Below are positions 35,508 through 42,063 of a DNA stretch of 64,000 bases, piece by piece. The position numbers were made by a program, and so were the translations under genes. Numbering within the stretch: the first letter of the stretch is position 1; each line of letters starts with the position of its first letter. The notes beneath the pieces were generated by a model that was not told where the DNA came from, did no database searches, and saw only the letters and a program-made list of their open reading frames with translations. Where the stretch lies: the NCBI RefSeq assembly GCF_006385685.1, contig NZ_VFRP01000009.1:1-64000 (forward strand), in the 5' to 3' direction. This DNA comes from Amaricoccus solimangrovi (GTDB lineage: Bacteria > Pseudomonadota > Alphaproteobacteria > Rhodobacterales > Rhodobacteraceae).

Positions 35508-35535
35508 GAAGCCCGCTCCCGAATTGTCATGAACC

Positions 35536-35634
35536 CGTAGGGCGGACCTCGGTCCGCCCGCGCTCGCGCCACCCAACCGTAGGGCGGACCTCGGTCCGCC
35601 ATCCCGCCCGCCGTAGGGCGGACCTCGGTCCGCC
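35536..35634. repeat. Three copies of a short palindromic repeat between terminase and portal
   Basis: Near-identical 23-base copies at 35536-35558, 35578-35600 and 35612-35634, each CGTAG followed by GGCGGACC-TC-GGTCCGCC, an 8-bp stem. Spacers are 19 and 11 bases, so this is not CRISPR. The same unit occurs at 41984-42006 and 42041-42063. Copies of this kind behave like REP-type intergenic elements. Here they separate two GTA genes by 139 bases where other spacings are near zero. Confidence 0.9.
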
Positions 35635-35646
35635 ATCCCCGCCGCC

Positions 35647-36984
35647 TCAGAGCCGCCGCACCCGCGGGTTCCGCCAGCCCTCGGCCGGGTCGATCATGAG
35701 TTCCGTCATCGCCCAGACCAGCGCGTCGACCCGGTCCGGACTGCCCCGGCCGGTGAACCCCGCGGCGCTCATCGCCCGCATCTGGTCCTCGAGCGCCGGA
35801 AAGGCGCCCCGATGCAGGATCCGCCCCTGTTCGTAGAGCGCCGCGACCGGCTCCGCCCGCGCCGCCTTGCCCCGCGAGGCCCTGACCCCGCGATAGGACA
35901 CCAGCGGATCGATCTGGCGCACCACCGTCGCGACCAGGTCTCCGCCCTGGTTCACCTCCGCGATCAGCCGGTCCGCCCTGAACCGGTGGTAGAGTTCCAC
36001 CGCCCGCGCCGCCCAGGTGGTGGGCGTCGCACCCTTCAGGCTGCCGTCGAAGATCACCTCGCCGATCCAGTCCTTCGGCGCGCCGCCCTGGGCCACCCCC
36101 GCGACGATGATCCCGCATTCGTCGGCCTCCTCCCCGGCGCTGACCGGCGGATCGACCGCGACCACGACGCGGCTGAGCTCCAGCGGCCGCGGCACCCGCG
36201 CCGCCTCCAGCATCGGCCAGGTCCAGAGCGCGCCCTCCGCGTCGTTCGGCATCACCCCGTCGAGCTCCTGCCGCCCGAGCCGGCCGCCGGCGTAGCGCCG
36301 CGTCACCGTCTCGAGAAAGCTCCTCGCGAGATGCATCCGGTTCGCCTCGGTCGGCGCATGGGTCGAGACCGTCTCCGCGTCGTCAAGGAGCGCGCGCAGG
36401 AGCGCGTTGTTGCGCGGCGTCGTCGTCACCAGCTGCCGCGGCCGGAGCCCGAGCCGGAGCCCGAACTGCAGCATGTCCCAGGTCGCCTGTCCCTTCGGCC
36501 ATTTCGCGAGCTCGTCGCTCCAGGCGCAGTCGAACTGCGGCCCCCGCAGGCTCTCGGGATCGCTCGCCGAGAAGATCCGCGCCTCGGCTCCGTTCGGCCA
36601 GACCAGCCGCCGGCGCGTCGCCTGCCATTCCGGACGCCGGTCCGGAGGCGAGCAGTTGAGGATCCCGGATTCCCCGAAAACCATCACGTCGCGCGCCTGG
36701 TCGAGCGTCTCCGCCACCAGCGCCACGCGTTCGCACTCGCCCGGATCCGCCGGGCGCGCGCCTTCGACGCGGGCGCGGATCCACTCCGCGCCCGCGCGTG
36801 TCTTGCCCGCGCCGCGCCCGCCGAGGATCACCCAGGTGGTCCAGTCGCCCGCGGGGGGCAGCTGGTGCCCCGCGAGCGCCCAGTGCTCGAAGAGCCAGGG
36901 CAGCGCGGAGAGCGCGTTCGGGGACAGCCCGTCGAGAAAGGCCTCGCGCTCAGCCGCGCTCAGACCAGAGAGCAAGTCGCGCAA
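35647..36984 (-). CDS. GTA gp2, terminase large subunit
   Basis: A DNA-packaging motor of about 445 residues with ATPase and nuclease domains. Walker A is WVILGGRGAGKTRAGAEWIR, Walker B-like region LRGPQFDCAWSDELAKWPK, coupling motif VTTTPRNN. The nuclease has acidic residues in VVVAVDPPVSAGEEADECGIIVAG, and the late SPDRVDALVWAMTEL. It packages random host DNA headfuls in GTAs. The start is uncertain: the conserved part begins near LRDLLSGLSAAEREAFLDGL. TTG 36984 is the closest start and lies inside the 3' end of gp1; an ATG at 37095 would overlap gp1 by almost half. Confidence 0.92.
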   Translation of the reverse strand: MRDLLSGLSAAEREAFLDGLSPNALSALPWLFEHWALAGHQLPPAGDWTTWVILGGRGAGKTRAGAEWIRARVEGARPADPGECERVALVAETLDQARDVMVFGESGILNCSPPDRRPEWQATRRRLVWPNGAEARIFSASDPESLRGPQFDCAWSDELAKWPKGQATWDMLQFGLRLGLRPRQLVTTTPRNNALLRALLDDAETVSTHAPTEANRMHLARSFLETVTRRYAGGRLGRQELDGVMPNDAEGALWTWPMLEAARVPRPLELSRVVVAVDPPVSAGEEADECGIIVAGVAQGGAPKDWIGEVIFDGSLKGATPTTWAARAVELYHRFRADRLIAEVNQGGDLVATVVRQIDPLVSYRGVRASRGKAARAEPVAALYEQGRILHRGAFPALEDQMRAMSAAGFTGRGSPDRVDALVWAMTELMIDPAEGWRNPRVRRL

Positions 36985-37255
36985 GGATTTCCGCGCGCGC
37001 GGCGTCGAGGTCGAGCTCTCCGCCCGCCCCGTCCCTTCTGCTTCTTTCGTCAAGACCCGCCTCGATGTCGAGCACGGCTCGCAGCGCGGTTCCATGTGCC
37101 CGGATCAGGGCCTCGTCCCGCCAGCCGCCGCCGGGCTCCCACCCGGCACCGTGCGCGATCCGACCGTGAAGCGCCACGGTGAGATCACGATACAATACTC
37201 GCGCGCGCCCGAGCAGATCGCCCGGCGCCGCCGATTCATCAGCTGAGATTGTCAT
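36950..37255 (-). CDS. GTA gp1, small terminase-like protein
   Basis: A 101-residue protein at the head of the GTA unit, in the place of gp1, which in R. capsulatus is the small terminase that binds TerL. It is probably helical (LLGRARVLYRDLTVALHGRIAHGAGW; ALIRAHGTALRAVLDIEAGLDERSRRDG; AARAEILARLALWSERG), and lacks a clear DNA-binding helix-turn-helix, consistent with non-specific packaging. ATG 37255 has a weak ribosome binding site (AGGG about 10 bases upstream). It overlaps the terminase large subunit. Confidence 0.82.
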   Translation of the reverse strand: MTISADESAAPGDLLGRARVLYRDLTVALHGRIAHGAGWEPGGGWRDEALIRAHGTALRAVLDIEAGLDERSRRDGAGGELDLDAARAEILARLALWSERG

Positions 37256-37290
37256 GTGATAGTCGCCCTGGCTGCTCCGCCCGGGCCGAA

Positions 37291-37328
37291 ACGAAAACGG
37301 CGGCGCACGCCATTCCGCGTGCCCGCCG
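37291..37328 (-). terminator. Intrinsic terminator located between the GTA promoter and gp1
   Basis: On the minus strand CGGCGG-GCACGC, loop GGAATG, GCGTGC-G-CCGCCG: a 12-bp GC stem with a single bulged G, followed at once by TTTTCGTTT. It is 36 bases upstream of the gp1 ATG and downstream of both the mltG stop (37420) and a good promoter (37354-37382). It may terminate the mltG transcript, but any GTA transcript from the promoter would also meet it. Confidence 0.75.
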
Positions 37329-37353
37329 TCGCATTTCTACCAGCTTGCCCGAA

Positions 37354-37382
37354 GGTATACCCTGGAGCGTTCGCCGCGTCAA
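37354..37382 (-). promoter_or_regulatory. Putative GTA cluster promoter
   Basis: Minus strand TTGACG (37377-37382), 17-base spacer, TATACC (37354-37359), with an AT-rich stretch upstream (AGATTTAGTTC). It is the best sigma70-like match in the 164-base gap between mltG and gp1. Predicted start near 37347, giving a leader of about 90 bases that contains the terminator hairpin. Confidence 0.65.
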
Positions 37383-37419
37383 GAACTAAATCTGAGGTTG
37401 TGCGATTTTCCCGCGCGCC

Positions 37420-38427
37420 TCAGTCGCTCGCCGGTTGCGCCGCCCGCCGCTGCTCCGCCTCGATCCGCCGCCAGGCCGCCACGTTCCGGTTGTGCTCGCT
37501 CAGCGTCGCCGAGAAGACATGCCCGCCGGTGCCGTTCGCCACGAAGTAGCGCATGTCGCCCTCCGCCGGATGGGCCGTCGCCTCGATCGCCGCCTCGCCG
37601 GGATTGGCGATCGGCGTCGGCGGCAATCCCTGGATCAGGTAGGTGTTGTAGGGCGTCGGCTTCGCAAGCTCGCTCGCCCTGAGGCCCCGGCCCAGCGTCT
37701 CCTTGCCGAGCGTCAGCCCGTAGATCACCGTCGGGTCGGTCTGCAGCCGCATCCCCTCCCTCAGCCGGTTCTCGAAGACCGAGGCCACCATCGCCCGCTC
37801 CTCCGGCAGGCCGGTCTCCTTCTCGACGATCGAGGCGAGGATCAGCAGTTCCTCCGGCGTCCTGAGCGGCAGGCCCTGCTCGCGGTTCGCCCAGGCCTCG
37901 GCCAGGATCCTGTCCTGCCGCGCCCGCATCCGGTCGATCAGCGACTGCCGCGTGTCGCCGCGCTGGAAATCGTAGCCCGCCGGCGCCAGCGAGCCCTCCC
38001 CGGGCAGTTCCGCGACCTCGCCCGACAGGTCGTCGCGGTTGTTCAGCATCTCGACGACCTGCCAGCTGGTCCAGCCCTCCGGCACGATGACCTGACGCAC
38101 GACATTGCCGCCCCGGTTCATCAGTTCGAGGATGTCCTTCATCGAGGCCCCGGGCGGGATCTGGTATTCCCCGTACCGCAGCCCCTGATCGAGCTTCGAA
38201 TAGCGCGCCGCCACGCGGAAGATCGTGTCGTTGCGGATCGCTCCCTCGGAGCGCAGCTTCGCCGCGACGCTCGAGAGCCCCTCGCCCCGGTCGACCTCCA
38301 TCACCAGCGGCTCGGTCAGCGGGCCGGGGGCGGCGTATTGCCGCTGCCCCCAGACGATCGCGCCGAGGAGCAGCGCGAGCGCGACGATCAGGATGGTCAG
38401 CGCGTTGGCGGCGATGTGGCGGAACAT
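37420..38427 (-). CDS. mltG: Endolytic murein transglycosylase MltG
   Basis: A 335-residue inner-membrane enzyme that cuts nascent glycan strands and sets their length. One N-terminal transmembrane helix (IAANALTILIVALALLLGAIVWG) and a periplasmic YceG-like domain: YGEYQIPPGASMKDILELMNRGG, VIVPEGWTSWQVVEML, LLILASIVEKETGLPEERAMVASVFENRL (catalytic Glu in VEKET), LQTDPTVIYGL and YNTYLIQGLPPTPIANPG. It follows fabF by 9 bases on the same strand, as commonly seen (fabF-mltG). It is directly upstream of the GTA unit. Confidence 0.96.
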   Translation of the reverse strand: MFRHIAANALTILIVALALLLGAIVWGQRQYAAPGPLTEPLVMEVDRGEGLSSVAAKLRSEGAIRNDTIFRVAARYSKLDQGLRYGEYQIPPGASMKDILELMNRGGNVVRQVIVPEGWTSWQVVEMLNNRDDLSGEVAELPGEGSLAPAGYDFQRGDTRQSLIDRMRARQDRILAEAWANREQGLPLRTPEELLILASIVEKETGLPEERAMVASVFENRLREGMRLQTDPTVIYGLTLGKETLGRGLRASELAKPTPYNTYLIQGLPPTPIANPGEAAIEATAHPAEGDMRYFVANGTGGHVFSATLSEHNRNVAAWRRIEAEQRRAAQPASD

Positions 38428-41928: not shown

Positions 41929-41983
41929 AGCGGTCCCCCATGTTTTCCGCCTGACTAGCGCCCGCCCGCCCCACCGTCCACCC

Positions 41984-42063
41984 CGTAGGGCGGACCTCGG
42001 TCCGCCTTCCCCGCCGCCCGCCCGCCGGTTCGCCACCCCGCGTAGGGCGGACCTCGGTCCGCC
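41984..42063. repeat. Two further copies of the short palindromic repeat
   Basis: Copies at 41984-42006 and 42041-42063, identical in the core GGCGGACC-TC-GGTCCGCC to those at 35536-35634. They lie in the 184-base gap between fabD and the Lrp regulator, upstream of the fabD start. Flanks are C-rich simple sequence (CCCCGCC repeats). Confidence 0.88.

Follow-up and report, generated by a model that had tools for sequence, protein, structure and literature searches.

A predicted terminator between the promoter and the first gene of the gene transfer agent operon of Rhodobacteraceae: a probable antitermination switch

What is a predicted transcription terminator doing between the promoter of an operon and its first gene? 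The question is raised by the start of the gene transfer agent (GTA) operon in Amaricoccus solimangrovi (contig NZ_VFRP01000009.1). Read from mltG toward gp1, the first GTA gene, on the minus strand of the window (the whole 64,000-nucleotide (nt) stretch of DNA analyzed here), the order is: a σ70-type promoter, a GC-rich hairpin with a U-tract, and then gp1, with no room for a second promoter. A preliminary description had placed promoter, terminator and gp1 in this order within 37255-37420, and had argued that another promoter could not be accommodated between terminator and gene; sequence and coordinates bear it out on both counts, and its distances are correct to a few bases. Of its terminator with a 12-bp stem and TTTT, the hairpin and the TTTT stand, but the stem has 14 pairs and one bulge. 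Its interpretation, conditional read-through of the terminator as an extra switch for GTA production, is partly supported: the region is probably an antitermination switch of the type operated by phage Q proteins and by the bacterial regulator AlpA, with GafA as the factor loaded onto RNA polymerase. Two questions about GTAs are touched by this, how GafA activates the archetypal GTA and why few cells make particles.

The -35 element of the promoter, TTGACG, occupies 37377..37382 and the -10 element, TATACC, 37354..37359 (on the minus strand, like all features of this locus); both are recognizable in relatives. They are 17 nt apart, and the -10 element has no T at -7, its last base being C. Two conserved parts are absent from the preliminary description. 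One lies in the spacer: GCGAACGCTC at 37365..37374 (consensus GCGNNCGNTC), near-invariant in relatives, is a candidate binding element of the GafA/GafZ type. The other follows six bases after the -10 element: CAAGCT (37342..37347), itself a -10-like hexamer (A+2, T+6), occupies +1 to +6 from a predicted start at C37347, 92 nt upstream of the gp1 ATG, and is a candidate σ-dependent pause element. The remaining conserved leader (consensus RGAAGAARTGGG, 37330..37341) runs into the terminator stem-loop (37296..37330), which begins at about +18, and the stem-loop into a U-tract of TTTT, CG and TTT (37289..37297) at which 3' ends are predicted; the terminated RNA would be about 54-59 nt long. (The U-tract stretch, TTTTCGTTTC, spans 37297-37288, with TTTT at 37297-37294 and then CGTTTC, and it is 38 nt on to the gp1 ATG.)

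A consensus scanner, at its thresholds, listed no promoter and no terminator for the region, missing both; the case therefore rests on comparison. In the window itself the pattern TTGAC-N18-[TC]A-N4-N5,6-[CA]ANNNT has a single match, at 37382, and the leader word remains unique even with up to 3 mismatches. Relatives were gathered by way of the large terminase TerL (gp2; 35647..37095, Pfam Terminase_6N/6C). At E <= 1e-150 the TerL of the window has a match in 9 of the 11 genomes of the genus, and at E <= 1e-120 in 196 of the 248 family genomes; a further 28 loci come from titled records. The TerL loci minus duplicates, together with 80 further stretches, make up 137 distinct regions upstream of TerL. 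The leader motif AAGCTRGAAGAARTGGG is found at no more than 5 mismatches in 123 of them (some misplaced, 3 on the reverse strand); TTGAC is correctly spaced in 111 of these 123; and in 110 of the 111 a hairpin follows, and then at least four U in 8 nt. These hairpins have a median of -22.3 kcal/mol, and 109 of the 110 reach -12 kcal/mol, as against 4 of 40 shuffled (40 of them having been shuffled once). The architecture is present at L019 in Rhodobacter viridis and at L023 in R. maris, both close relatives of R. capsulatus.

Is the hairpin kept as a structure, and as a terminator? A comparison of the stem across relatives, which the preliminary description had proposed, finds the architecture to be family-wide and the stem to covary. 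In the window, the RNA of 37346-37285 folds at -33.9 kcal/mol (z -4.1; no shuffle out of 200 folds as well). Taken whole, the 211 nt fold in an only mildly unusual way (z -1.88, equaled by 10 of 200 shuffles). In an alignment of 91 rows (one of them a reverse-strand hit, L090) all 11 stem pairs have changed on both sides, with 157 double-change cells, a count that leans upward because the rows were aligned to fit the structure; the stem is 93.6% paired as against 73.6% in shuffles, and sliding the stem partner by 1 to 3 columns lowers pairing to 33-73%. None of 500 shuffles is as high on four of five measures of covariation, and 16 of the 500 are as high on the fifth, which counts the pairs changed on both sides. 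What separates promoter from operon is, as a feature of sequence and structure, an intrinsic terminator. A possible outer helix, P1 (37288..37337; 37337-37332 with 37293-37288, GAARTG with CRTTTC), is weakly supported: it is 91.9% paired, as against 89.1% in shuffles, and one of its six pairs has changed on both sides.

A hairpin need not terminate: it might instead protect the 5' end of the mRNA or tune translation of gp1. The presence of a second predicted stem-loop, P3 (37265..37286), which lacks a U-tract and adjoins gp1, lends this some substance. What makes it improbable is that the leader hairpin keeps a run of at least four T at the U-tract in 85 of the 91 aligned elements while its stem sequence varies freely, and that such runs are rare further on (just 5 of 110 at +76 to +110). 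In many relatives, judged by eye, the P3 place (about +60 to +90) is held by a stem-loop CTCTCGTGCGG..GCATGAGAGG, again without U-tract; P3 may serve as an operator or in translation.

Nor need a terminator in a leader be governed by a protein. Attenuation by RNA alone (riboswitch, leader peptide or T-box-like), in which a competing antiterminator fold decides the outcome, has in its favor that attenuation is usually recognized by a terminator in the 5' leader; an NTG stands at +14 in 105 of 110 sequences, and leader plus 5' arm fold at -6 kcal/mol or better in 29 of 110. We regard this as the least credible of the alternatives, and very unlikely indeed, because the leader is short (some 18 nt ahead of the stem), the alternative fold is mostly weak (a median of -4.5 kcal/mol for leader plus 5' arm against -22.3 for the terminator) and the NTG frame is not kept open; nor is the length of the element constant modulo 3 (36, 25 and 30 of 91). 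The element has no match in Rfam either. A leader peptide was rejected separately, since in 42 of 110 sequences the NTG frame meets a stop codon inside 75 nt (the other frames in 45 and 55); neither a competing antiterminator structure nor a conserved leader open reading frame (ORF) was found in the element.

The spacer element and the +1 to +6 element together point to a Q-like mechanism. (Papers are cited here by PMC number, on the strength of excerpts.) Q requires two things, an element in the interval from -35 to -10 and a -10-like sequence within the part transcribed first (PMC6606751); at lambda PR' the pause element lies at +1 to +6, RNA polymerase pauses at about 16 nt, and a mutant with A+2G/T+6G is disabled (PMC4604602). 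The first of the two is present here as the conserved GCGNNCGNTC, the second as a sequence feature only. Among the 75 sequences with the main spacing (of 110, a set chosen by the presence of TTGAC and the leader motif) the spacer has the form (G)CGNNCGNTC: C-26 is kept in 71, G-25 in 75, C-22 in 75, G-21 in 68 and T-19 in 70, and 73 of the 75 have a -10 element without T at -7. The hexamer was assessed in sequences anchored by the promoter only, with the register fixed from +8 to +18 only: 106 of the 137 regions qualify, every one with a 17-nt spacer, and 102 of the 106 combine A+2 with T+6, as against 0-5 at shifts of 1-12. (The leader stands one base nearer to the -10 element in 31 of the 106.)

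These two elements bear directly on the main rival explanation, in which the leader resembles that of UpsM: a short terminated RNA would be the dominant product and might act in trans, the operon would be served by a fixed, low, leaky read-through, and GafA would raise initiation only. The family offers a precedent, since in R. sphaeroides the dcw operon begins with the small RNA UpsM (PMC5089854), and the first 18 nt of the GTA leader are highly conserved, much as a seed region would be. An UpsM-like leader leaves A+2 and T+6 unexplained, however, as it does a spacer element at the position used by GafZ, and a homologue with the GafZ domain is an antiterminator (PMC11150451). We consider this explanation unlikely, if less so than the others discussed here.

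Is the element peculiar to this family and to its GTA operons? A covariance model, R1, built from 26 sequences, matches 90 of 100 loci and, in a further set of 28, another 25, two of these in part (E <= 0.01; nine of the 137 regions, mostly aberrant, were not among the loci given to R1), and 172 of 248 family genomes at the same threshold. A fuller search of 12 chosen genomes yields one strong match in each (at least 53 bits), the other matches reaching 27.5 bits at most, many to the terminator part only. In a set of 289 genomes of the class, searched at E <= 1e-4 with strict filters that lose weak matches, R1 is found in none of the 285 from other families and in 2 of the 4 listed as the same family. 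The promoter pattern TTGACN4CGNNCGNTCN4GTA occurs in 30 of 120 genomes, one copy each (the reversed pattern has 4 matches), and 29 of the 30 adjoin an R1 element or TerL by coordinates (the one left unchecked is G014); in Caulobacter GafZ likewise has a single target (PMC11150451). The parts, their order and their conservation are established by sequence and comparison.

Some observations on the loci themselves belong here. A second copy of the element in the A. solimangrovi genome was looked for and dismissed, the next match being partial (positions 7-58, E 0.003). A phage origin of the element was also set aside: of the 28 IMG/VR contigs whose terminase is related, 6 carry it, and these are taken to be GTA clusters called viral. 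The A. solimangrovi genome has a second TerL (L002; G000 C49:173827-175092), 51% identical, with no mltG match in the adjoining 4.3 kb. At L181 and L182 (genomes G250 and G253) the TerL match ends at residue 196, with promoter and leader terminator retained; at L181 the TerL frame continues into sequence that resembles, by eye, the gp15-like ORF of the window, and L182 looks similar. These clusters seem to have been reduced by internal deletion.

The neighborhood suggests another function for the hairpin. Upstream of the operon lies mltG (37420..38427, the end of its stop codon at 37420; Pfam YceG, 1.9e-84), of the YceG-like family, which is matched at 50 of 66 loci (a count that takes in duplicates and short contigs); downstream is gp1 (36950..37255, ATG at 37255), in the TerS position and without a Pfam match. 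Sitting between the two, the hairpin might be an insulator that ends mltG transcription and keeps basal GTA expression low, while GafA acts at initiation only, through σ and the ω subunit of RNA polymerase, and overwhelms the terminator; a contact of GafA with ω has been reported (PMC9638019). Since the GTA promoter precedes the terminator, however, the hairpin would stop GTA transcription as well. Moreover, 6 of 39 loci have a hairpin with a T-run upstream of the promoter and yet retain the leader hairpin (some of the upstream ones are weak); R. viridis and R. maris are among the six, their extra hairpin standing between mltG and the promoter, so that the leader hairpin is not needed there to end mltG. 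An insulator is, in our estimate, decidedly unlikely, its probability lying between those of an UpsM-like leader and of a hairpin that does not terminate. A plain mltG terminator was rejected because of the position downstream of the GTA promoter; some relatives have a separate one.

What, then, would carry polymerase past the terminator? GafA had been guessed at by the preliminary description, and the literature fits: the antiterminator GafZ of Caulobacter, reported to ride with RNA polymerase and to give read-through, has its homologue in the C-terminal part of GafA, and its authors remark that GafA might have an unrecognized antitermination activity (PMC11150451). R. capsulatus GafA binds 50 bp at 76-125 before g1, spanning the -10 element and the start (PMC6363796), and its C-terminal domain binds a fragment with -35, -10 and start (PMC9638019). 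From predicted +1 to ATG the distance is 92 bp in the window and 96 bp in R. viridis. The left half of the Caulobacter GafZ element fits GCGNNCG (PMC11150451). No report of the leader terminator turned up in searches of open-licence papers, of which some were opened and the text alone was covered.

The A. solimangrovi genome encodes one protein with a DUF6456 domain (C62, 9.9e-57); it has 395 residues, the domain at 251-385, and an N-terminal helix-turn-helix match that falls below its cut-off. DUF6456 is presumably the GafZ/GafA domain. Such a protein is present in 224 of the 248 family genomes; in a control search Caulobacter vibrioides, alone among 14 control genomes, has one. R1 is found in 168 of the 224 genomes with DUF6456 and in 4 of the 24 without (tables read by hand; 20 of the 24 are listed and 4 inferred from missing handles), a co-occurrence that partly reflects loss of the whole GTA.

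The switch might work as follows. RNA polymerase would start at C37347 or an adjacent base; region 2 of σ would rebind at the +1 to +6 hexamer, with a pause near +16, ahead of synthesis of the hairpin; GafA, anchored at the spacer element through its C-terminal DUF6456 domain, would load onto the paused enzyme; and the loaded polymerase would pass the leader terminator together with any later ones. Without GafA, starts would end as the short RNA, and polymerases coming from mltG would be halted too. Pause, loading, termination and GafA-dependent read-through are what we infer from the layout. GafA would be required twice, for firing and again for passage, and control of a lethal operon would therefore be more sharply on or off. 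A conserved promoter-proximal terminator beside a loading site predicts such a second checkpoint, along with precise mutations by which it can be tested.

A number of facts weigh against a Q-type switch. The model R1 has no match in 13 of 128 loci, and 31 of the 137 regions fail to match the promoter-only pattern; among the loci with TerL, several have lost the promoter, and some have no promoter or no hairpin. In the hexamer, G+4 and C+5 are conserved although the lambda mutants implicate A+2 and T+6; part of the leader may therefore serve another role. GafA additionally binds its own promoter and the lysis promoter (PMC6363796), and with the promoter pattern occurring once per genome the spacer element is therefore not its only recognition site. 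Sherlock and Fogg ascribe GafA action to contact with ω (PMC9638019). The proven terminator of Caulobacter lies outside the leader, which has 229 nt there; it consists of three 150-bp repeats that follow the first gene (PMC11150451). In the loci compared here, the gap between terL and the portal gene has a hairpin with a T-run in only 7 of 55 (R. viridis being a clear case), as against 1 of 55 on the reverse strand and 1 of 55 shuffled. Finally, the architecture is mostly absent outside the family.

What there is outside the family is a lead, not a result. Among 27 loci of other families, scanned up to 1 kb upstream of TerL, four have a hairpin with a T-run (L243, L252, L253 and L264, at -350 to -660 from TerL); of the loci looked at more closely, L243 and L264 have it shortly upstream of the apparent first gene, and L243 has a promoter too, with CATGCT after the -10 element. 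A looser pattern (TTGAC, -10, CANNNT) has 8 matches in 29 regions, all among the 27 and none on the reverse strand; the match at L265 is probably due to chance. A stricter matrix scan of the 27 gives a clear match in L241 only. At L255, L258, L260 and L243, which are loci of GTA-like terminases, the words CATAAT, CATAGT, CATAAT and CATGCT stand just past promoter-like sequence; those of L255 and L260 are close to the -10 consensus at +1 to +6.

How does this arrangement compare with known ones? The nearest is the GafYZ system of Caulobacter crescentus (Tran and Le 2024, PMC11150451), in which the main GTA promoter, a regulator homologous to GafA, a binding element in the -35/-10 spacer, and a terminator ahead of most of the operon all recur. 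The differences are that here a short intrinsic hairpin begins at about +18 of a leader of some 92 nt, and that GafA is one fused protein, unlike GafYZ, with antitermination a putative activity; the excerpts of that paper make no mention of a pause element for GafYZ. As to a terminator like the Caulobacter terGTA, directly after the first gene or the terminase, the window's own terL-portal gap has none. (The three GC-rich repeats in that gap were considered and rejected as terGTA-like: they belong to a 23-bp palindromic repeat, GCGGACCGAGGTCCGCCCTACGG, with 75 genome copies at no more than 2 mismatches and none in a reversed control. The window has three at 35535-35633 and two more at 41983-42062, near the start of an ORF named fabD-like by eye.) The corresponding gap at L019, in R. 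viridis, has a strong hairpin of -21.6 kcal/mol and a T-run, at the Caulobacter terGTA position.

With the UpsM leader of the dcw cluster of Rhodobacteraceae the GTA leader shares a promoter, an intrinsic terminator in the 5' leader and a long operon to follow, and the short RNA would have its counterpart in the one predicted here; the UpsM 5' untranslated region has 268 nt, read-through of its terminator is about 1% in R. sphaeroides, and the excerpts report neither activator nor loading element (PMC5089854). AlpA of Pseudomonas aeruginosa, which belongs to a pathway of programmed cell death, is a bacterial regulator that recognizes a promoter element and lets polymerase through an intrinsic terminator (PMC9371919); its operon is a different one, and the likeness drawn here concerns the mode of action. 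The lambdoid PR'-tR' region served by Q has an element in the -35/-10 interval, a -10-like element in the initial transcribed sequence and an intrinsic terminator downstream (PMC6606751, PMC4604602), as here; unlike it, the present switch would operate in a conserved bacterial GTA, by a putative pause and putative loading. One can imagine, and we offer this tentatively, as somewhat nearer to doubtful than to probable, that the switch for the late genes of an ancestral phage survives in alphaproteobacterial GTAs: a loading site like that of Q (spacer element and σ-pause hexamer at +1 to +6), after it a tR'-like terminator, and in GafA/GafZ one more, unrelated, Q-like antiterminator, the Rhodobacteraceae having the terminator less than 20 nt from the start, and pause, loading and termination in a single leader of about 55 nt. 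If true, Q-type antitermination, known from phages and from AlpA, would extend to a domesticated prophage carried across a whole family.
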